From a virus, in the IMG/VR virus record IMGVR_UViG_3300030333_008349, positions 1 through 23,269 of that record: a stretch of 23,269 nucleotides of DNA; one strand, 5' to 3'. Shown in pieces: positions 1-19,389 of this stretch. The notes below the pieces were generated by a model. The model saw nothing but the letters and a program-made list of their open reading frames with translations. It made no database searches and had not been told where the DNA came from. Position numbers and translations under genes: made by a program. The stretch's first letter is position 1. Each line of letters opens with the position of its first letter.

Positions 1-310
1 TAAATTTAAACAGTTGGATGACTTCTTTTGCAGGAACTTTTTCTCCAGACTTAGCCGCATCTTTTAATTTTTTCCAATCTATCTTTATGATTGAATCAGT
101 TACTTCTTGTGAGCCCTGCATATAATGTCGCACGTAATTTCTTTTAAACCAAGTTTTAGGTTTTTTTAATTTCCATTCAGGCTCTTCAGGATTTACCCAG
201 CTACCATTTTCATGGATAATTGTTTTACCTAAAAATTTTAATTCTTGAGAATCTTCTGCGATTACGTTAAACGCGCAGAAAAACGATAGTGTTAATATTA
301 GTTTTTTCAT
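1..310 (-). CDS. Small secreted protein with signal peptide (partial, runs off left edge)
   Basis: On the minus strand an ATG at 310-308 opens a frame that stays open for 103 codons to the window edge, so the C-terminus is missing. The first 18 residues are a classical Sec signal peptide: two lysines, a hydrophobic core (LILTLSFFCAF), and a V-I-A cleavage site before Glu19-Asp20. The cysteine at residue 12 is not in a lipobox, so signal peptidase I is more likely than lipoprotein processing. The visible mature part is polar and rich in Lys and Trp, and I recognise no domain in it. The start lies one base after the stop codon of the upstream ankyrin-cyclase gene (TAA-A-ATG), so the two are almost certainly co-transcribed and translationally coupled. 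An exported product, probably periplasmic, is inferred; its function is unknown. Confidence 0.75.
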   Translation of the reverse strand, partial: MKKLILTLSFFCAFNVIAEDSQELKFLGKTIIHENGSWVNPEEPEWKLKKPKTWFKRNYVRHYMQGSQEVTDSIIKIDWKKLKDAAKSGEKVPAKEVIQLFKF

Positions 311-311
311 T

Positions 312-1865
312 TTAATTAAATTCTGCTTTTTTTGTTCCCCGCCAATCGGGAAATTCTGTTCTTCCAAAGTTTGGTCCGTAAGCTGTCCACATATGTACAG
401 TCGAACCGTGCTTGACTATGACAGGACCCCAGTCGTCAAATTTTAATCCTGGAATATCCATTTGATTTACATATTGATGGACACCGTTAGATATTAGTAT
501 ATGATCATTGTCACCTGCATCCATGCATCTTTGCGCCATGTTTATTCCTGCGCCACTAACATTTGGATTGTCATTTATATCTTTTACAGGGACAACTGGG
601 CCAGAATATACTCCGTTACGTAATCCTATTTGGGGGTGCTTATAAGTCTTTTTCCCTACGTCCACCGCACACTTAAACGCAGCATGCACAGAATTAAAGA
701 ATACGAGCGCCATACCGTCCCCTGTAGGCAATATTATTAGCTTACCCTGTCTATTTGCCTGCTGGAACCCTTCAGTGCCTTTAACGTAAGATATGAGCTC
801 ATCTGTGACTCTTTTCTGTTCGGCCGTGCTTTTGTTTGAGTATCCGACAATATCCATAAAATATGTGTGAGCTTCGCAAGGGCTATCATAAACTAAAGAC
901 TCGCCTTTTAATTTAAATGGATCTTCTCCCCACTTCCATTTAATAACTCGCTGTCTTTTCTTCTTTTCTTCTTCCTGTTGAATTTTCTTTCTAACTTCAG
1001 CAGCTTTATCTTCTTTTTGTTTCATTTGGGCCGCAGCCGCTTCTAGTCTTTTTATTTTATCAGATTTAGATTCGAATAGTTTACCTAATAGTCCATCAGG
1101 TTCTTTAGGGGTATCTTCATATTCATAGCCTTTAAATTCTGGCTCGCTGTTACCACCAACTTGAACTTGATCTATAGATTGTTTGTATTTGACTTGGCCT
1201 CTCTCAGAATGTTTCATCGCGCCTTTAGAAACCAAATATTTTAACATCTCCTCGTTCTCGTTATCGTTAGCTATTTCCCAAGGATTAAGTTGATCGAGTT
1301 CTGGTTCAAATGTAGATCCATTAACATTAGCTTTGTTTTCGAGTAATAATTTTACTATTTCAAGATTATTCATTTCAACTGCGTAATGTATTGCCATCCA
1401 TCCTCTAACGTCTCTTGCGTTTACTTTTATAGAATCGTCTTCTAATAAACACTCTATTTCATCAATGTCTTGCATTTGCACAGCTTGATGTAAGTTTAAA
1501 TCTTCGCCGTAAAACTTGCCGCCCTTTTTAATTAAGTTGTTTATTATTTTTGTACGATTAGGCCCCTCCGCAACATCCATTGGATAAACTATTGGGGTTT
1601 TATCTGAGTCATCTTCTTCAAGAGCGAGGTTCCAATCGTTTTGTTTTTTCTTTTCTGGAGGCGCGCTTTTGATGTTTGGCCTAATTCCAGCATCTAACAT
1701 TAATTGCACGATTTTAGCCTTACTGTGGTGAGAAGCATAGTGCATTGGACTCCATCCCAGCTCTTTATCTAAAGATAAAAAAACTTTTTTATTAGTCATT
1801 TGGGACAACGCTTTTTTTATGCCCTTAATGTTGCCGTTGATAGCTAAATTGTGTATTTCTCCCAT
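312..1865 (-). CDS. Ankyrin-repeat protein with class III nucleotide cyclase domain
   Basis: The 517-residue product has three parts. Residues about 36-66, 122-152, 154-183 and 194-216 are ankyrin-like repeats, usually protein-binding. Residues about 266-307 are a Lys/Glu-rich probable coiled coil. Residues about 331-498 match the class III adenylate/guanylate cyclase fold: metal-binding Asp338 in FMDIVGYS, Asp383 in PTGDGMAL, and the transition-state pair Asn442 and Arg446 in INMAQR. By my alignment the two positions that select the purine base are unusual: Leu379 where adenylate cyclases have Lys, and Asn435 where they have Asp. Catalysis on a nucleoside triphosphate therefore looks possible, but the product (cAMP, cGMP or a cyclic pyrimidine) cannot be called. 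There is no signal peptide or membrane segment, so it is cytosolic. It is the first gene of a minus-strand operon, with a GTGTAA motif 9 nt before its start. Confidence 0.85.
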   Translation of the reverse strand: MGEIHNLAINGNIKGIKKALSQMTNKKVFLSLDKELGWSPMHYASHHSKAKIVQLMLDAGIRPNIKSAPPEKKKQNDWNLALEEDDSDKTPIVYPMDVAEGPNRTKIINNLIKKGGKFYGEDLNLHQAVQMQDIDEIECLLEDDSIKVNARDVRGWMAIHYAVEMNNLEIVKLLLENKANVNGSTFEPELDQLNPWEIANDNENEEMLKYLVSKGAMKHSERGQVKYKQSIDQVQVGGNSEPEFKGYEYEDTPKEPDGLLGKLFESKSDKIKRLEAAAAQMKQKEDKAAEVRKKIQQEEEKKKRQRVIKWKWGEDPFKLKGESLVYDSPCEAHTYFMDIVGYSNKSTAEQKRVTDELISYVKGTEGFQQANRQGKLIILPTGDGMALVFFNSVHAAFKCAVDVGKKTYKHPQIGLRNGVYSGPVVPVKDINDNPNVSGAGINMAQRCMDAGDNDHILISNGVHQYVNQMDIPGLKFDDWGPVIVKHGSTVHMWTAYGPNFGRTEFPDWRGTKKAEFN

Positions 1866-1874
1866 ATATTTATT

Positions 1875-1880
1875 TTACAC
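1875..1880 (-). promoter_or_regulatory. GTGTAA motif, putative promoter of the ankyrin-cyclase operon
   Basis: On the minus strand GTGTAA lies 9 nt before the ATG at 1865. It forms a divergent pair with the plus-strand copy at 1898-1903. Assignment as a promoter is inferred from its recurrence before every transcription unit in the window. Confidence 0.5.
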
Positions 1881-1897
1881 GATTTTTCAAGAAAAAA

Positions 1898-1903
1898 GTG
1901 TAA
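1898..1903 (+). promoter_or_regulatory. GTGTAA motif, putative promoter of the FG-GAP tail protein
   Basis: GTGTAA ends 25 nt before the ATG at 1929, with a GGAG Shine-Dalgarno candidate between them (1912-1915). It is the plus-strand half of a divergent pair separated by 17 nt. Confidence 0.5.
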
Positions 1904-1928
1904 TGTTATTTGGAGAATATATACTATT

Positions 1929-4400
1929 ATGGCTAGAAACAGGATAATTTACCAAAATGAGCTGTTATTTGTGTCACCAAGCGCAACAGGCAATCAGAAT
2001 TTAAACGGTGATGACCGCCCAGGAGAAAGTCTTTTGCGACCAATCAAAAGAGTGCAGGGAATAAATTACGGATTTGCAATCAATAGAACAGATACCTATC
2101 AATATGGACAACTAGCTAGAATTGATTCTAAGGTTCTTTCATCTCCAACTGTTTCTTTAGATTTTTCTTATTATTTAACTGATGGCCAAAACGAACACCT
2201 TTTAGGTTTCGATACTAGTAACGACTCTAACTTTCTCCATAAAGACTTTATTAATGATGGAGAAGGAAGAAATTATTATGTATACACAGCCCCAGAAGGC
2301 AGAGATGCAATAGGAACTATAGCTCAATTAGACGCTCAAGAAGATACGGATAAAAGTGTAGTGGCGATTGGTAACGGTTTTGTTTCAAGCTATTCTTTAA
2401 ATGCGGCTGTCGGAGGTATGCCAGTAGTATCCATTTCTGTTCAAGGTTCAAATATACAAGCGGACGCTGGAAAAGCAGGGCAAAATCCTGCAATAAATCC
2501 TTCAGAAGGTATTCAATATACTAACGAATACACTATACCAAATGAATACATAGTGACTGGAGAAGGTCCTGGCTGTTTATTACCTGGGGACATCGAAGTT
2601 GATTTAGGCGACTCTTCATTATTGAGTACTGTAACCGATGACAACAACTCTTCAGCTTCACATATTCAAAGTGTTTCTATGGATTTGCCCTTAGGTAGAT
2701 CAAATCTGGAAAGACTAGGAAATGCTTTTGGTTACGCAAAAGTGCTTGATGTGCCAATTACTGCAAGCATTTCAGTTTCTGCAGTTTTAGCTGATAAAAA
2801 ATCATCTTCACAATCATTATTTACAGAGCTATACGCTCAGAACAAAAGTGATCTTAAAATTGCATTTAGAAAGCCTAGCCCAGATGGCTCAAAAAAAGGA
2901 GATAAAAAAGTTGAGTTCACTTTCCATAATGCGGTCTTAGAGTCTGAAAGCTATGGCATGTCAATTGGTGATAACCGCACCGTAGACTATGTTTTTAGTA
3001 CAACTATCGGAGACCCGAAAGCCAGCACGGCAAGATCTGATACACGAGCAGGATCTATCCAAGTAGTTTCATCTGGCGTATATGAGCAGTTTCAAGTTTT
3101 GGAAACTGGAATGTCTAGCGATACACCTAATAGGAAACTAGACAATATTGCATATGGCCATGCCGTTGCTGCTAATAAAGACGTTTTAGTGATTGGTGCT
3201 AGTGGATTTGCAAATAGTGATTTCGAACTAGGTGCAGCGTATATTTATAAAAATAAAGGTGGATTTTATACTCAAGTTCAACAAACTTCTGGACAAGAGC
3301 AAGCAGCAGGACTTAGTAATACAAGTTATATTCCTGGAGTTAACAAAAGTCAAGATACAAATTTTGGGATGGATGTTGCAGTCAGCCCTGGCAACTTAGT
3401 AGCCGTAGCTAATACTAAAGGCGGAGAAAACACGCTTAAGCTTGCAGGTGCTGTATCTATTTTTCATCCAGATGATGATAATTTAGAAAGCTTTACCGTT
3501 CGTGATATATTGACTGGACAAGCTGATGATGGAGATAGAACGTCTTTTGGAAGCGTTTTAGCTTTTGACAAGGAAGTTAGTGGAAAAACTCAATGGATGG
3601 CTATAGGTGCGCCACTATCTACTAGTGGTGATGGCACTGAATTAGGAACTGTTCATATTAGATATGGAGTAAAAGGCGAAACTAATAGTTTTGCGGGTTA
3701 CGAACTATCTAAGACGTCAACAGAAATACACTCAAACTTAGGCGCTAATGTTCACGATTCAAACGAGAGATTTGGAACGTCAGTTGCAATGCACAAAGGT
3801 GTTGTGGTTGCAGGTGCTCCAGGATTCAGTGCGCAATCTGGAGTTGCATATGTTTACGCAGCAGACGGAACTGGGCCGCACACTGCAGCAACTTCTTTTG
3901 TTGAAGTTCAAATGTTAACAGGAGTTACAAGTTCTGACAGTAATCCTGCATTTGGCCATTCCGTAGATATATTTAATAATACAATTGCAGTTGGAGCGCC
4001 TAGTGGCGCAGCAGGTGGCTCAAATCGTGGAGAAGTTTACATATATACTACTGCTGAGTCTCCATACAGAAAATGGACTTATCAAGCAAAAGTGCAAGCA
4101 GATGATGCAGCTGGAAGCGACAAATTTTTTGGAGACTCTGTTTCAATGCCAAATGAGACCACTCTTGTTGTTGGAGCGCCAGGCGAAGATGATGTTAACG
4201 CTAATGCTGGTTCAGTTTATGTGTTTACTGGGGCTGGAAGCTCTTGGACTCAGACACAGAAAATAACATATACTGGTTCTGCAGAACAAGATAAAGCTGG
4301 AGATAACTTACCGTCGTTAGCTACAACTCAAAAAGATATATTTGTAGGCGGTATTCCTGGCGTAACAGATAAAGAAAAAGTAATTCGTTATCGAATTTAA
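1929..4400 (+). CDS. Tail-tube-like structural protein with C-terminal seven-repeat FG-GAP beta-propeller
   Basis: An 823-residue protein. Residues 1 to about 365 are paralogous to the two minus-strand proteins ending near 16896 and 18169: shared NR-I-x-YQ start, DGQNE-LLGF, GNGF-x3-YSLNAAVG, LLPGDIEV, HIQSVSMDLPLGRS and SIGDN blocks. Residues about 400-823 contain seven FG-GAP-type repeats beginning near 408, 478, 539, 614, 674, 733 and 790, several with the xxVGAP signature and Asp-rich loops that resemble calcium-binding loops. Seven repeats are what one integrin-alpha-like propeller requires. The best reading is a virion tail component carrying a surface-exposed adhesion domain, possibly for host or particle binding. 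I start at 1929 rather than the upstream in-frame ATG at 1851 because the paralogues begin with the same M-A-x-R-N-R sequence and a GGAG lies upstream. The tail-tube assignment comes from gene order and the paralogues, not from a recognised tube motif. Confidence 0.8.
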   Translation: MARNRIIYQNELLFVSPSATGNQNLNGDDRPGESLLRPIKRVQGINYGFAINRTDTYQYGQLARIDSKVLSSPTVSLDFSYYLTDGQNEHLLGFDTSNDSNFLHKDFINDGEGRNYYVYTAPEGRDAIGTIAQLDAQEDTDKSVVAIGNGFVSSYSLNAAVGGMPVVSISVQGSNIQADAGKAGQNPAINPSEGIQYTNEYTIPNEYIVTGEGPGCLLPGDIEVDLGDSSLLSTVTDDNNSSASHIQSVSMDLPLGRSNLERLGNAFGYAKVLDVPITASISVSAVLADKKSSSQSLFTELYAQNKSDLKIAFRKPSPDGSKKGDKKVEFTFHNAVLESESYGMSIGDNRTVDYVFSTTIGDPKASTARSDTRAGSIQVVSSGVYEQFQVLETGMSSDTPNRKLDNIAYGHAVAANKDVLVIGASGFANSDFELGAAYIYKNKGGFYTQVQQTSGQEQAAGLSNTSYIPGVNKSQDTNFGMDVAVSPGNLVAVANTKGGENTLKLAGAVSIFHPDDDNLESFTVRDILTGQADDGDRTSFGSVLAFDKEVSGKTQWMAIGAPLSTSGDGTELGTVHIRYGVKGETNSFAGYELSKTSTEIHSNLGANVHDSNERFGTSVAMHKGVVVAGAPGFSAQSGVAYVYAADGTGPHTAATSFVEVQMLTGVTSSDSNPAFGHSVDIFNNTIAVGAPSGAAGGSNRGEVYIYTTAESPYRKWTYQAKVQADDAAGSDKFFGDSVSMPNETTLVVGAPGEDDVNANAGSVYVFTGAGSSWTQTQKITYTGSAEQDKAGDNLPSLATTQKDIFVGGIPGVTDKEKVIRYRI

Positions 4401-7459: not shown

Positions 7460-8435
7460 GTGTAAAGAATGTAGTAGAGAATTCGGAAGCGAAGCGTCGC
7501 TGCATAGACATATCAAAATTCACGATATGAATCTTGCAGATTATTATACAAAAAACTTTCCAAGAAAAAATTTATTAACTGGAGAGCTTCTACCGTTCAA
7601 AAATAAAAAAGATTATTTTGAAAAAGATTTTTCTACTTATAGTCAGTTGCTAAAGTGGTGTCATTCAAGTCCTACAGAAAAAGTTAAAGAGTATGCGCTT
7701 AACAAATTAAAAAATCGCATAAAAGACAAAGATTTAAACTTTGGGCCAACTCATTTAGAACTTTTATTAACTGAGCTGCCTACTGTAGACATTTATAAAA
7801 AACTTTTTTCAAGCTACTCTCACGCTTGTAGTCAAGCTGGAGTCACCCCAATGCTTTATAGAAAATTGCCTGATGATTTTTTTGAAGTTGATGGACTTGA
7901 TAATTTAGAAGTTGTAATTGACACCAGAGAAAACAAGCCGCTTCCTTTTAAACACACAAAAAAATTTGCATTAGATTTTGCCGACTATACTGCAAGCGGT
8001 AGCAGGTATGACTACACATTTATAGAAAGAAAAAGCGAAAGTGATTTCAAATCAACAATGTCTCAAAATTTCTCTAGGTTTAGACGTGAAATGTCAAGAG
8101 CAAAAGCTATGGACAGTTATGTATTTATTGTGGTTGATAGTGACATAAAAAAAATCAAAAAACAAAATCATTTTTCTCCACATCCATCAAATTTAAAATT
8201 TATTTTTCATAACATGAAAGCTTTGTGTCACGAGTTTCCACAAACATGTCAATTTATATTTTCTGGTAATAGAACTACATCAATGGATTTAATTCAAAGA
8301 ATTTTATATTTTGGCAGAAAAATTTGGTACTGTGACTTACAATATTATATAGACGCAAGAAACTATGGCCTGGCAAAAAGGAAATCAAAAAGACAGACCC
8401 AACAAACATCGCGATATCAACAAGCTGCTTCTTGA
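7449..8435 (+). CDS. C2H2 zinc finger / ERCC4-family nuclease
   Basis: A 328-residue fusion. Residues 5-25 are a textbook C2H2 finger (Cys5-x2-Cys8-x12-His21-x3-His25). Residues about 153-290 carry the ERCC4 (XPF/MUS81) nuclease core: VVIDTRE at 155-161, an ADY at 178-180 where GDY is usual, and the diagnostic ERKxxxD at 193-199, followed by a conserved-looking Arg/Glu helix. The family cuts branched or structured DNA using metal ions. Here it lies between a possible small terminase and the large terminase, whose start it overlaps by 71 nt, so a role in DNA packaging or in resolving concatemer branches before packaging (as T4 gp49 does) is plausible. The finger could bind DNA or the terminase. 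Domain calls are firm; the biological role is inferred. Confidence 0.8.
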   Translation: MSFKCKECSREFGSEASLHRHIKIHDMNLADYYTKNFPRKNLLTGELLPFKNKKDYFEKDFSTYSQLLKWCHSSPTEKVKEYALNKLKNRIKDKDLNFGPTHLELLLTELPTVDIYKKLFSSYSHACSQAGVTPMLYRKLPDDFFEVDGLDNLEVVIDTRENKPLPFKHTKKFALDFADYTASGSRYDYTFIERKSESDFKSTMSQNFSRFRREMSRAKAMDSYVFIVVDSDIKKIKKQNHFSPHPSNLKFIFHNMKALCHEFPQTCQFIFSGNRTTSMDLIQRILYFGRKIWYCDLQYYIDARNYGLAKRKSKRQTQQTSRYQQAAS

Positions 8436-10239
8436 TGAGAATCTTGGTTTTCTTGAAGAAAGAGAAGCAAAGTTATACTTATATCAATTTTTAAGAGAGA
8501 ACACTACGTTTGCTGCAGATTTGCTTATGGGAATTAAACTGTTTCCGTTTCAGCATATGTCGATTAAGGCAATGTTTGAGACTGACTATTTTATGGGTGT
8601 ATGGTCTCGTGGTATGTCCAAGTCTTTTACTACTGCAATTTTCGCAGCATTAGACGCTATGCTCAATCAAGGCGTAGAAATAGGTATACTTTCTAAATCT
8701 TTCAGGCAGGCTAAAATGATATTTAAGAAAATTGAAGACATAGCCGCTAAACCTGAAGCAGCCTTGTTTGCCCAATGCATTACAAAGAAAAGCAAAAGTA
8801 ACGATGAGTGGCTACTGGAAATCGGAAGGTCAAGGATAAGAGCCTTGCCTCTTGGTGATGGTGAGAAGCTGCGTGGTTTTCGTTTTCACAGAATTATTAT
8901 TGATGAATTTTTATTGATGCCAGAGCGAATATATAATGAAGTCATTGTACCGTTTTTGTCTGTTGTAGAAAATCCAACTCAACGTGAAGATTTATACAAT
9001 CTAGAAACAAAGTTAATAAAAGAAGGCAAGATGGTTGAAGAAGAAAGATACGTATGGCCTAACAATAAATTAATTGCATTGTCTTCTGCGTCTTACAAAT
9101 TTGAGTATATGTATAAACTTTATACTCAATTTGAAAATCTTATATTTAATCAAAACTCTACTGATACTGCGCACAGAACAATTATGCAATTTTCTTACGA
9201 TTGTGCGCCAAAGCAACTGTACGACCAAAATCTTTTAAATCAGGCGAAGTCAACAATGAGTCAAAGCCAGTTTGATAGAGAGTTTGGAGCTGTGTTTACT
9301 GATGACAGCAGTGGATACTTTAAGATATCTAAAATGGCCGAGTGCACAATACCAGATGGTGAAGATCCATCCGTTGAAGTTGCTGGTGAACCAGGCGCAG
9401 AATATTTACTAGCTTTTGACCCAAGCTGGGCAGAAAGCGAAAGCTCAGATGATTTTGCAATTCAAATTTTCAAACTTAATGCGGAAAGACAAATGGGTAC
9501 AGTTGTTCATAGTTATGCGTTATCTGGCGCAAATATGAAAGATCACATTAGGTACTTTTCTTATATTTTACAAAATTTTAATATCGTGATGGTAGTTGGT
9601 GATTATGCAGGAGGCGTACAATTTATTAGTGCTTGTAACGAAAGTGAAATATTTAAACAAGATAAGCTGCAATTGAAAATTATAGAGGCGGATTTTGAGC
9701 GGCCTGAGAATTATAACGATGATTTACAAAAAGCCAGAAATCAGTATAATAAAAACGAAGGTAAGATTTGTTATTTAAGAAAGCCAACAAGCAATTGGAT
9801 TCGTCAAGCTAACGAGTTACTTCAATCCAACTTAGATCATTCAAGAATATTTTTCGCGTCAAAAGCGATTGATGAATCTTATCAAGTTCAAAGAAGAAAA
9901 AGAATTCCTATCGATAAATTAAAATATTTGAAATCAAACGATTCTGTTGAAAAAATGTCTAAAGAGGCTAAAATGATAGACTTTATTGAACATCAATCAG
10001 ACATGATAGAATTAACGAAAGTTGAATGTGCACTTATTCAAATCACTACGACAAGTCAAGGCACTCAAACTTTTGACTTACCCGCTAATTTAAAAAGGCA
10101 ATCTGGCAGAGACAAAGCTAGAAAAGATAGTTATTCTGCGCTAGTATTAGGCAATTGGATGATAAAGACTTATTTTGACATGTTGAATTTTAAACAAAAA
10201 GAAGTCGTGTCAACTTTTACTCCAATGTTTATAAATTAA
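8365..10239 (+). CDS. terL: Terminase large subunit (packaging ATPase and nuclease)
   Basis: A 624-residue two-domain packaging motor that binds the portal, pumps DNA into the prohead and cuts the concatemer. ATPase motifs are Walker A SRGMSKS (81-87), Walker B RIIIDEF (176-182), and a coupling motif LSSAS (239-243). The RNase H-like nuclease domain begins near 345 and shows three acidic sites: Asp352 in AFDPSW, Asp413 in VVGDYAGG, and Asp588 in RKDSYSAL. Length and order match a complete enzyme. The chosen ATG overlaps the upstream nuclease gene by 71 nt, which is long, but the next in-frame Met (near residue 55) would remove N-terminal sequence before the ATPase core. An alternative non-ATG start in the overlap cannot be excluded. 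Confidence 0.95.
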   Translation: MAWQKGNQKDRPNKHRDINKLLLDENLGFLEEREAKLYLYQFLRENTTFAADLLMGIKLFPFQHMSIKAMFETDYFMGVWSRGMSKSFTTAIFAALDAMLNQGVEIGILSKSFRQAKMIFKKIEDIAAKPEAALFAQCITKKSKSNDEWLLEIGRSRIRALPLGDGEKLRGFRFHRIIIDEFLLMPERIYNEVIVPFLSVVENPTQREDLYNLETKLIKEGKMVEEERYVWPNNKLIALSSASYKFEYMYKLYTQFENLIFNQNSTDTAHRTIMQFSYDCAPKQLYDQNLLNQAKSTMSQSQFDREFGAVFTDDSSGYFKISKMAECTIPDGEDPSVEVAGEPGAEYLLAFDPSWAESESSDDFAIQIFKLNAERQMGTVVHSYALSGANMKDHIRYFSYILQNFNIVMVVGDYAGGVQFISACNESEIFKQDKLQLKIIEADFERPENYNDDLQKARNQYNKNEGKICYLRKPTSNWIRQANELLQSNLDHSRIFFASKAIDESYQVQRRKRIPIDKLKYLKSNDSVEKMSKEAKMIDFIEHQSDMIELTKVECALIQITTTSQGTQTFDLPANLKRQSGRDKARKDSYSALVLGNWMIKTYFDMLNFKQKEVVSTFTPMFIN

Positions 10240-16415: not shown

Positions 16416-16903
16416 TGCCAAACGAACCAAAAATATTAGCTAATTCTGTATTTGTCAATGAATTTGACAGTGATACAGATATGGCTACGTTAAGCCAAAT
16501 ATCTGGCTGGTTTGAGAATAATATTGGAGAGTTAAATACTTTAATATTTACATCTTTTAGTGGCAGCGGTGAAGCAGGTAAAAGCTCACATGTGTTTCAC
16601 CCAAAAATGGGGCTAGAAGAAAGCGGCATTTACAAAAAGCTTTATCTAAAACACTTTTACCAAAAGAAGGCTAGGAATGTTTTAAAGGGTATCGATAGTA
16701 GCGTAGACTTCATTTCTTTAAGAGAAGGCGATTCTATGATAACTAGAACCAATAAAAACGAAATAGCTAAGACATACAGAGGTATGGCCAAAGACGCTGA
16801 AGAGGATTTAGAAAAAGCGGTATATGCTTATAACTATTATAATGCTGTACCAAGACAGGTTGCTGGAGGAGATGTAAGATTAGAGCCTAGTGGGGTTAAC
16901 TAG
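16415..16903 (+). CDS. Head-tail adaptor (connector) protein, probable
   Basis: A 162-residue, mostly helical protein. The segment ISGWFENNIGELNTLIFTSF followed by a short-helix region (GIYKKLYLKHFYQKKARNVL) resembles adaptor proteins that add to the portal ring after packaging. It lies after the capsid gene, where the first connector is usual, and is translationally coupled to the SAP-like gene. It is the last plus-strand gene of the block, and its 3' end overlaps the convergent minus-strand tail gene by 8 nt. The call rests on pattern and position. Confidence 0.55.
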   Translation: MPNEPKILANSVFVNEFDSDTDMATLSQISGWFENNIGELNTLIFTSFSGSGEAGKSSHVFHPKMGLEESGIYKKLYLKHFYQKKARNVLKGIDSSVDFISLREGDSMITRTNKNEIAKTYRGMAKDAEEDLEKAVYAYNYYNAVPRQVAGGDVRLEPSGVN

Positions 16904-18104
16904 CTGAGCCGCTAAATTTAAATCCAGTAACATGATTGCATTCAAATGTAAAAGTAGCATTAACCTCCATGTTATCTCCTATATTTTGTGAAAAAGATTG
17001 AGATTGACATTTAGCCTTTGTAATTTCTAATTCTACAGCTTTATTAGATGGAAGCCCTTCAGAATTTAATGGGCTTGTAGGATCTAAAAATGTAATTGTA
17101 AAATCATAAGCTCGATCTTCTGAAAATACAGTATCTGTCGTTCCGTCATTAATATTGTTAGCTATAGCCGTAAAAGAAACATTTCCTAGCCCTGGGAAAT
17201 TAGCTCTTCTATCAAAAACATATTTAGAACCAAATCCGTATAAATCGGTTCTGTTAATTGGTACGTCAATAGATATGTCTTGAATGTGCATTCTGTTTGA
17301 GCCAGAAAGTTTTATACCTCCTATGTTGCTTTCAGTAAAGGACATCTCTACATCTCCTGGCCTCAAGTAGTGTATTTCGCCACTATTTGTTGAGCCTAAG
17401 TTTTGCTCGTCTGAAGCGTCAGAGACAACGTCACCGCTTCTTAATATGTATCCATATTCGTGGCTTGAAGCTAATTGGCCATTGGCGGGATTAACTGCTG
17501 GAATCAAACCAGAGCCTATGATTCCAACGTTGCCTTTTGAGTCGGTATATGAGGTTGTTCCGCTAGTAGTATCAAACTTAACATTAGAAGCTAAATATTC
17601 AACTGAAGCGGTAGCAAAGGAACCAACAGATAACTGTAGTGAATAATTTATTGGAAAGCAATTGCCAAAGCTTAATACGTTATGATTGCTAAAATCTTCT
17701 TGTTTATTAAACTCCTCTGAGGCTTCATCTGCGATAACAAGAAATAAGTTTCTATCCCCAGTGGGATTTTGCTGTCCAGAAAGAAATGCAGAGTTTTCTC
17801 CTGAATGGCAAAAGCCTAGCATATCCTCATTCCTGCCATCACTTAATATGTAGCTAAACCCAACTGATACATCTGGACTGACCACAGCTTTTCGTTCAGT
17901 TAGACCATGGCCTCCAATTTGCCGTATTTCTGCCCTGGTGACGTTAAAATTAAAAGAGGCGTTCTGTACTAGGTTTAGCTTTTTAAGTTTACTAGAGGCG
18001 AATTTCTGGCTTGGAGAGCCTGCATATTGACCAGAGTGACTTGAGAATGCTGGAGTTGGGCCAACAAGTAAACCCACGTTCTGATATGATATTCTATTCC
18101 TCAT
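16896..18104 (-). CDS. Tail-tube-like structural protein, divergent paralogue
   Basis: A 402-residue protein, the most divergent of three paralogues in the window. It keeps the MRNRISYQN start, VSVGFSYILSDGRNEDMLGF, YSLQLSVGS, YLRPGDVEMSF, HIQDISIDVPINR and SQNIGDN blocks, in the same order and at similar spacing. It lacks the FG-GAP extension. A beta-rich tail-tube or related tail structural role is likely; a second tube-like protein could be a baseplate or tail-tip ring adapted from the tube, though that is inference. It has its own GTGTAA motif inside the terminator of the preceding gene and ends convergently with the adaptor gene. Confidence 0.7.
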   Translation of the reverse strand: MRNRISYQNVGLLVGPTPAFSSHSGQYAGSPSQKFASSKLKKLNLVQNASFNFNVTRAEIRQIGGHGLTERKAVVSPDVSVGFSYILSDGRNEDMLGFCHSGENSAFLSGQQNPTGDRNLFLVIADEASEEFNKQEDFSNHNVLSFGNCFPINYSLQLSVGSFATASVEYLASNVKFDTTSGTTSYTDSKGNVGIIGSGLIPAVNPANGQLASSHEYGYILRSGDVVSDASDEQNLGSTNSGEIHYLRPGDVEMSFTESNIGGIKLSGSNRMHIQDISIDVPINRTDLYGFGSKYVFDRRANFPGLGNVSFTAIANNINDGTTDTVFSEDRAYDFTITFLDPTSPLNSEGLPSNKAVELEITKAKCQSQSFSQNIGDNMEVNATFTFECNHVTGFKFSGSAS

Positions 18105-18168: not shown

Positions 18169-19389
18169 TTATCTAATGAATCTTGAGTCATCATTGTTGC
18201 CAAGTGCTCTTTGGCCAGATATAAATAATCCATTAGTTGTGTCTTCTGGTCCACCAACTGTAGCACTAAACGTAAGATCAACAGATTTGTTGTCTCCGAT
18301 TGAAGAACTGTAAGATTCACTATCAAGCGTTACGTTCTTAAGATTATATCTAATTTGCTCTGCTCCTCCTGAGCCTCCACCTGCAGATGGCTTTCTCATA
18401 ACAATTGCAATATCATGCTTTTGCTGTTGATATAGCTCGTCAAACAAGTTGCCTCTCTTAAGGTCAGCAACGATAGCTGAGATGGAAACTGATACGGTGA
18501 TCGGAAAGTCGATTTCACGTGAAAATCCAAAAGCATTACCTAATCTATTAAGAACGCTTCTTCCAAGTGGCATATCTATACTAAAGCTTTGAATATGTGC
18601 AGCGCTTTTTGCGTTCGTGTCGGTTAATTGTGCCAAAACTCCAGTAGCGCTTCCTGCGCTGGTGGTCGTACCTCCAAACATAACTTCCATGTCGCCTGGG
18701 CGAAGAATGTCTCCAACGCTACCAGAAATAGGATTCGGTAAAGCGTATGTCGCAGTACCTTGTACTGAATTTGCTGGGTCAATTGCTGGAGTGGTTAAAG
18801 ATGCTCCCGCTGAATCAGCAGTAATATTCAAGCCTTCCACACTAACACTTGCAGTAGGAAGAGCTCCAACCGCAGCGTTCATGCTGTAGTTTGTGATATA
18901 TCCATTACCAACTGAAATAACAGTGCTAGTAGCTGATCGAGCTGCATCGTCCCCAACCTTATCAGTGTTAGCGTCTGTTCCTTCGGGCGTTGTTAATATA
19001 TGATAGTTTCTGCCAGAAATATTAGACAGCACACCAGAAATTGCTGACGTTTGCGCTGCAGTATCGCTTACTGTAATTCCCAACTTATCTTCGTTACTGC
19101 CATCAGTAATGAGATATGTAAAATCTAATCCAACCGTAGGAGCTTCGATAACTGCTGTATCAATTCTTGCCAAGTTGCCAAATTGATTAACATCTTGCCT
19201 GGAAATAGCAAAATTATAGTTTGCGCTCTGAACACGATGAATTTGGTGGAACATGCCCGTGCCAAAGTCAGGGCCGACTCCTACAGCTCTATGCGAGCCA
19301 TTGACAATATCCAAGCTTTTGTGTCCTGAACATTGATGAGTCACAAAAAGTGCCTCACTTTGATAAATTACTCTGTTTCTTTTAGCCAT
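18169..19389 (-). CDS. Major tail-tube-like protein (probable)
   Basis: A 406-residue, beta-rich, Gly/Ser/Thr-rich protein. It is closer to the N-terminal part of the FG-GAP protein than to its neighbour: RNRVIYQSEALFV, FAISRQDVNQFGNLARID, LDFTYLITDGSNE, VGNGYITNYSMNAAVGALP, LRPGDMEV, HIQSFSIDMPLGRS and SSSIGDN are all matched. Its place after closure, connector and tail-completion genes (read on the minus strand) is that of the major tail tube protein. It is monocistronic, with a GTGTAA motif 43 nt upstream and its own terminator, as expected of an abundant virion protein. No database match was available to confirm. Confidence 0.7.
   Translation of the reverse strand: MAKRNRVIYQSEALFVTHQCSGHKSLDIVNGSHRAVGVGPDFGTGMFHQIHRVQSANYNFAISRQDVNQFGNLARIDTAVIEAPTVGLDFTYLITDGSNEDKLGITVSDTAAQTSAISGVLSNISGRNYHILTTPEGTDANTDKVGDDAARSATSTVISVGNGYITNYSMNAAVGALPTASVSVEGLNITADSAGASLTTPAIDPANSVQGTATYALPNPISGSVGDILRPGDMEVMFGGTTTSAGSATGVLAQLTDTNAKSAAHIQSFSIDMPLGRSVLNRLGNAFGFSREIDFPITVSVSISAIVADLKRGNLFDELYQQQKHDIAIVMRKPSAGGGSGGAEQIRYNLKNVTLDSESYSSSIGDNKSVDLTFSATVGGPEDTTNGLFISGQRALGNNDDSRFIR

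Follow-up and report, generated by a model that had tools for sequence, protein, structure and literature searches.

Phages are known to counter cyclic-nucleotide signals either by cleaving them, as with Acb1 and Apyc1 (PMC9117128), or by sequestering them, as with Tad1 (PMC13282480). The Pycsar cyclases (PycC) have the class III cyclase fold and a base pocket unlike that of adenylyl cyclases, and form part of an anti-phage operon with a paired CNBD effector; their pyrimidine-reading residues are F100, R142 and Q144 in EaPycC and Y50, D94 and R97 in BcPycC (PMC11224242). The text of a comparative survey covering 224 jumbo phages (PMC7824862) mentions neither a nucleotidyl cyclase nor an ankyrin protein, and the literature searched yielded no paper describing an ankyrin-cyclase or a class III cyclase from a phage. 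The parts of the gene described here are known, and their combination in bacteriophages appears to be unreported in that literature.

The gene lies in an IMG/VR record of 23,269 nucleotides, analysed over its whole length and called the window below, which carries terminase, PhoH, sigma-like and other phage genes.

Domain layout and active site

The reading frame at 312..1865 is complete, starts with ATG and encodes 517 aa on the minus strand, where all features of the gene given here also lie. An earlier note on this DNA had marked the same frame, leaving out its strand, and had read it as ankyrin repeats fused to a class III nucleotidyl cyclase; Pfam for the ankyrin part, a profile match for the cyclase and a structure model bear that reading out. 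The ankyrin-repeat domain (residues 1-220; 1206..1865) is well above chance (Pfam Ank_2, 1.3e-22). In a full-length AF2 model the ankyrin helices extend to about residue 220 and are followed by a disordered stretch and then, ahead of the cyclase, by a long charged helix (residues 259-306; 948..1091), a candidate dimerisation or signal helix. This model, built from a phage-only alignment, is poor in the cyclase part, and a separate model of that domain was therefore used; both represent monomers.

The class III cyclase homology domain (residues 321-510; 336..905) falls under the Pfam cut-off (E 0.016; 15.3 of 21.9 bits), and Pfam alone would overlook it. Despite that score, profile and model together indicate a real cyclase domain, because a family profile search of the PDB finds the mycobacterial adenylyl cyclase Ma1120 at 1.3e-12 and the model aligns to class III cyclases. 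The domain model (AF2; pLDDT 86, pTM 0.82) superposes on Ma1120 with Z 19.5 (2.4 A across 159 residues), and class III cyclases head its structural matches, with Foldseek in agreement; every one of the 50 matches listed reaches a Z of about 17 or higher. The earlier note had suggested comparing a predicted structure with adenylyl cyclases and PycC, and mycobacterial adenylyl cyclases are among the matches listed. Ma1120, Rv1264 and Rv1900c are alike in fold (Z about 19) and metal site but have another base pocket (Lys-Asp in Ma1120), lack ankyrin repeats and are not phage-borne.

Besides the fold, the protein has the two metal-binding aspartates of class III, Asp338 (852..854) and Asp383 in the motif TGDG (717..719), and the transition-state residues Asn442 (540..542) and Arg446 (528..530), all placed by sequence position and conservation. 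The purine-selecting positions, assigned from sequence, relatives and conservation, are occupied by Leu379 (729..731), where adenylyl cyclases have Lys, and Asn435 (561..563), where they have Asp. This pair stands in place of both the Lys-Asp pair of canonical adenylyl cyclases and the Glu-Cys (or Glu-based) pair of canonical guanylyl cyclases. The earlier note had named these six residues and numbered them correctly, and all six are invariant across the 39 related loci checked. In one locus (L106:9066-10612), alone among the copies seen, the ankyrin and cyclase parts lie in separate, overlapping frames, which may reflect a frameshift, an assembly error or a true split.

The cyclase domain is under strong purifying selection. 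Between the window copy and those of L101 and L131 it shows no amino-acid change (dN 0 at dS 0.39 and 0.61, respectively), and against L004 dN/dS is 0.009 at dS 0.76, with 99% identity; dN/dS was used only at dS below 1. Because the domain is so strictly conserved, its sequences make it very likely that it does something depending on its active site, and a binding role may be an alternative basis for the constraint.

Catalysis could be weak or lost, because both base-selecting positions are unlike those of adenylyl and guanylyl cyclases. The protein would then be a pseudoenzyme or decoy that no longer makes a product: its fold would bind either nucleotides or, as a sponge or dominant partner, a cyclase of the host, and its ankyrin repeats would bind the target. 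Consistent with this are the replacement of the base-pocket Lys and Asp by Leu and Asn, the sub-threshold Pfam cyclase score, and archaeal members of the subfamily that lack even the transition-state Asn (Ile or Leu instead). It sits poorly with both metal aspartates and both transition-state residues being invariant in all phage copies checked, with dN/dS near 0, and with a bacterial relative that also retains the metal and transition-state residues; we think it rather unlikely.

Relatives, the Leu/Asn pair and Pycsar

Relatives from Verrucomicrobia, Acidobacteria and Thaumarchaeota carry, with few exceptions, the motif ILPTGDGM, whose Leu occupies the Lys position; at the Asp position nearly all of them have Asn. 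Since the pair also occurs in these bacterial and archaeal relatives, L379/N435 reads, at the level of sequence, as the signature of a cellular subfamily and an inherited trait. The earlier note had taken the two residues as leaving the way open to cCMP or cUMP and a link to Pycsar, a suggestion that their presence in cellular relatives undercuts. We know of no assay of the Leu/Asn base pocket of this subfamily.

Soil Verrucomicrobia and Acidobacteria cyclases with the PTGDGM motif (L043-L059) have the purine positions filled by Leu (in L043 by Ile) and Asn and, like the phage protein, keep both metal aspartates and the transition-state Asn and Arg. Unlike it, they carry the cyclase N-terminally and have no ankyrin repeats; of three proteins scanned, two have TPR repeats behind the cyclase. 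The thaumarchaeal ILPTGDGM cyclases (L060-L098) share the motif and, nearly all, the Asn at the Asp position, but show about 30% identity and have lost the transition-state Asn to Ile, Leu or Val.

A cellular protein with the domain order of the phage gene, ankyrin repeats and then an ILPTGDGM cyclase with the Leu/Asn pair, is the 606-aa ankyrin-cyclase of Verrucomicrobiales bacterium F1-60-MAGs043 (L042), so that the window protein belongs with this Verrucomicrobiota type of ankyrin-cyclase. The two have identical residues at all six active-site positions and 46% identity in the cyclase domain, which makes the relationship a distant one; L042 differs in being chromosomal, in its stronger ankyrin array and in its linker. 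It is flanked by kdsB-like and ligA-like genes and is therefore cellular. In a tree whose root is uncertain, all phage copies group as a single clade (100/99), next to which L042 falls, and among 388 Verrucomicrobiota genomes sampled a match joining both parts was seen in the MAG of L042 only.

The comparison with Pycsar can be made residue by residue. When residues are matched by their distance from the metal Asp (which for BcPycC is inferred from EaPycC), the PycC base-reading positions fall on F336, L379 and T381/G382, and agreement is found only at F336, a position where Phe is common in class III. PADLOC Pycsar models gave no match up to E 1. No CNBD effector (PycTIR or PycTM) was found in 16 phage records, many of them fragments, and no small neighbour of the cyclase proved constant. 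In the PDB profile search a uridylate cyclase came in at E 0.15 against 1e-12 for Ma1120; PycC was not among the 50 structural matches listed, which excludes nothing. With the base-reading residues unmatched, no PADLOC Pycsar hit and no CNBD effector in the 16 records, this evidence places the protein outside Pycsar.

A looser kinship is conceivable, in which the ankyrin repeats would sense a rival phage, the enzyme would make cCMP or cUMP and a cell-killing effector would exclude superinfection. The non-canonical base pocket fits such a Pycsar-like module, as does an accessory, allele-swapping locus (see “Phage setting and allele exchange”), which is what one expects of exclusion genes. The unmatched base-reading residues, the missing PADLOC match and effector, the lack of a constant neighbour and the far closer profile match to canonical cyclases all weigh against it, and we hold it to be improbable. 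The phage enzyme might nevertheless make a cyclic pyrimidine.

Phage setting and allele exchange

The same fusion is found in about 40 other IMG/VR viral contigs of up to 200 kb, belonging to a group of large phages known only from uncultured material, often within reach of a PhoH/sigma/terminase block and in several other genomic settings. Because it recurs with phage neighbours in many contigs, the fusion is phage-borne, as the earlier note had held. That note had also called for a search of phage genomes, and GenBank phages, beside these IMG/VR contigs, gave no match to the fusion even at E 1. One fusion-bearing contig binned into a Flavobacteriales MAG (L041) has the same phage neighbours and is therefore most likely phage. 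The position of the gene near a contig end could suggest a phage contig fused with host DNA, or a chance resemblance; against this, many independent contigs hold the gene internally, flanked left and right by phage genes, and an artefact of either kind is very improbable. A host/phage chimera was rejected on the phage surroundings shared across contigs.

The best GenBank phage matches to the terminase are about 23% identical. The terminase lineage itself (window 8365-10239 and L139-L218) is abundant, matching at least 598 viral stretches, and has no close GenBank relative. Elsewhere in the window, three proteins (1851-4400, 16896-18104 and 18169-19389) have a similar start (RNRI.YQN), one of them with FG-GAP repeats, and are probably virion paralogues; that at 18169-19389 has no GenBank phage match.

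Alleles of the fusion differ most in the ankyrin part (56-97% identity to the window copy, against 76-100% for the cyclase domain), and grouping the full-length proteins at 80% identity gives five sets. Their distribution does not follow that of the phages that carry them. L109 and L129 are 100% identical in terminase and 99% in PhoH but 56% in the cyclase protein; L004 and L118 are 93% identical in terminase and 67% in cyclase; and the window and L004, with terminases at 39%, have cyclase proteins at 91%. At the DNA level both flanks are mostly 84-99% identical in the pairs L109/L129 and L111/L030, while the gene is at 57-74%; between the window and L004, DNA similarity ends at the gene ends. 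In this last pair third-position identity peaks in the cyclase core, which suggests recombination inside the gene too.

Two relatives (L271 and L272) are clean empty sites, with 9 bp where L129 has 2.4 kb comprising the cyclase and small ORFs. The gene was not found in 21 of 24 long records that fall in the same terminase clade as the window. Three of the 24 (L141, L142 and L144) have their first base at window position 1929, just outside the gene, in the stretch (1866..1929) that contig comparison marks as the border of the swapped locus, and absence there is therefore uninformative; assembly breaks at a gene edge would be expected of a variable locus. Another 18 records, from the L109 clade, likewise yielded no copy, in a search that had no positive control of its own and whose query gave matches in other searches. 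The cyclase gene is an accessory cassette that phages exchange horizontally.

These patterns also bear on whether the protein serves the phage's own housekeeping, as a developmental regulator or a virion-associated protein in which the cyclase fold is incidental. Its frequent place near the PhoH-sigma-terminase block and the strong purifying selection would suit such a role. Its clean absence from L271 and L272, the lack of any copy found in most records of the same terminase clades and its several genomic positions would not, and we consider such a role unlikely.

The genes beside the cyclase vary. In the window, the downstream gene (1..367, minus strand; ORF call), cut by the contig end, encodes a predicted secreted protein that was found in four related loci and is no constant partner. 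The small ORFs that follow differ between phages (shuffled lipoproteins, a ferredoxin-like ORF, small membrane proteins), and there is therefore no fixed effector; a constant downstream partner or effector was sought and not found.

Several of these neighbours merit description in their own right. The ferredoxin-like ORF follows the cyclase in L129 (10798-11028) and in L106. Small membrane proteins of family F7 (as L105:7034-7480) are common beside the cyclase/PhoH block and by eye resemble the MscS beta domain, with no Pfam match. A short MotA/TolQ/ExbB-like protein of family F45 (L110:8623-8970; Pfam 5.6e-16) lies just upstream of the cyclase. In L127 (10701-12059) and L128 a TnpB/Cas12f-like gene, which could help the cyclase gene move, is directly downstream, and its family also occurs near the cyclase in L113 and L121.

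Pseudopilin-like proteins with the prepilin N-terminal motif adjoin the cyclase in L123 (6079-8048) and also in L112, L113, L119, L126, L014 and L127. The phage pseudopilins have their best full-length matches, nine in all, in the Verrucomicrobiales MAG of L042, which holds nine copies (the strongest at 4e-44, against 1e-23 for the next genome). Two separate accessory genes, cyclase and pseudopilin, therefore point to one bacterial lineage, and these matches are suggestive of a Verrucomicrobiales-like host. The contig binned with Flavobacteriales (L041) speaks against this assignment. Of 414 phage ORFs only 47 have a Shine-Dalgarno-like motif, a rarity that does not settle the host.

Proposed function and known systems

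The reading we prefer, at a probability of roughly 0.55, is that of a host-derived signalling enzyme whose ankyrin repeats pick its partner and whose product is meant for host receptors, put to use in conflict between phage and host or between phages. The cassette would derive from a Verrucomicrobiota-like host gene. Its ankyrin repeats, variable between alleles, would bind a protein partner, and the helix would couple them to the cyclase domain, which would pair as a homodimer and make a cyclic nucleotide acting on host CNBD proteins. Allele swapping among near-identical phages favours some conflict role, which might be control of host signalling, anti-defence or the exclusion of rival phages; of the roles raised in the earlier note, superinfection exclusion and host-signalling control are possible, as is a decoy.

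CNBD genes (PF00027) were absent from the 16 phage contigs, many of them fragments, and a phage receptor gene could therefore be missed. In the Verrucomicrobiales MAG of L042 there are nine matches to CNBD and five to class III cyclases. With none in the phage records and nine in the MAG, the receptor, if a product is made, is most likely the host's. A more specific version, which we offer only tentatively, has the phage attack with a second messenger of its own: swappable ankyrin heads would dock on a host or rival-phage protein, and the cyclase would flood the cell with a cyclic nucleotide, perhaps an unusual one given the Leu/Asn pocket, for host CNBD receptors to read. Overall, a signalling enzyme used in conflict ranks first, followed by a pseudoenzyme or decoy, a developmental or virion role and, behind these, a Pycsar-like module.

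Allele swapping provides a direct handle on function. The Leu/Asn pocket is common to soil bacteria and ammonia-oxidising archaea, and the identity of the product would also indicate what many cellular proteins make.

Among viruses, the named matches at E 0.001 or better in a viral structure library are giant viruses of eukaryotes. Their cyclases (Harvfovirus, Faunusvirus and Pandoravirus; BFVD) are likewise virus-encoded and of class III fold, but they have other annotated partners (response regulator, kinase). A cyclase of its own may let a phage steer the internal signalling of its host; if this is true, a phage making a cyclic nucleotide would be the reverse of the known phage tactics of destroying or sequestering such signals.
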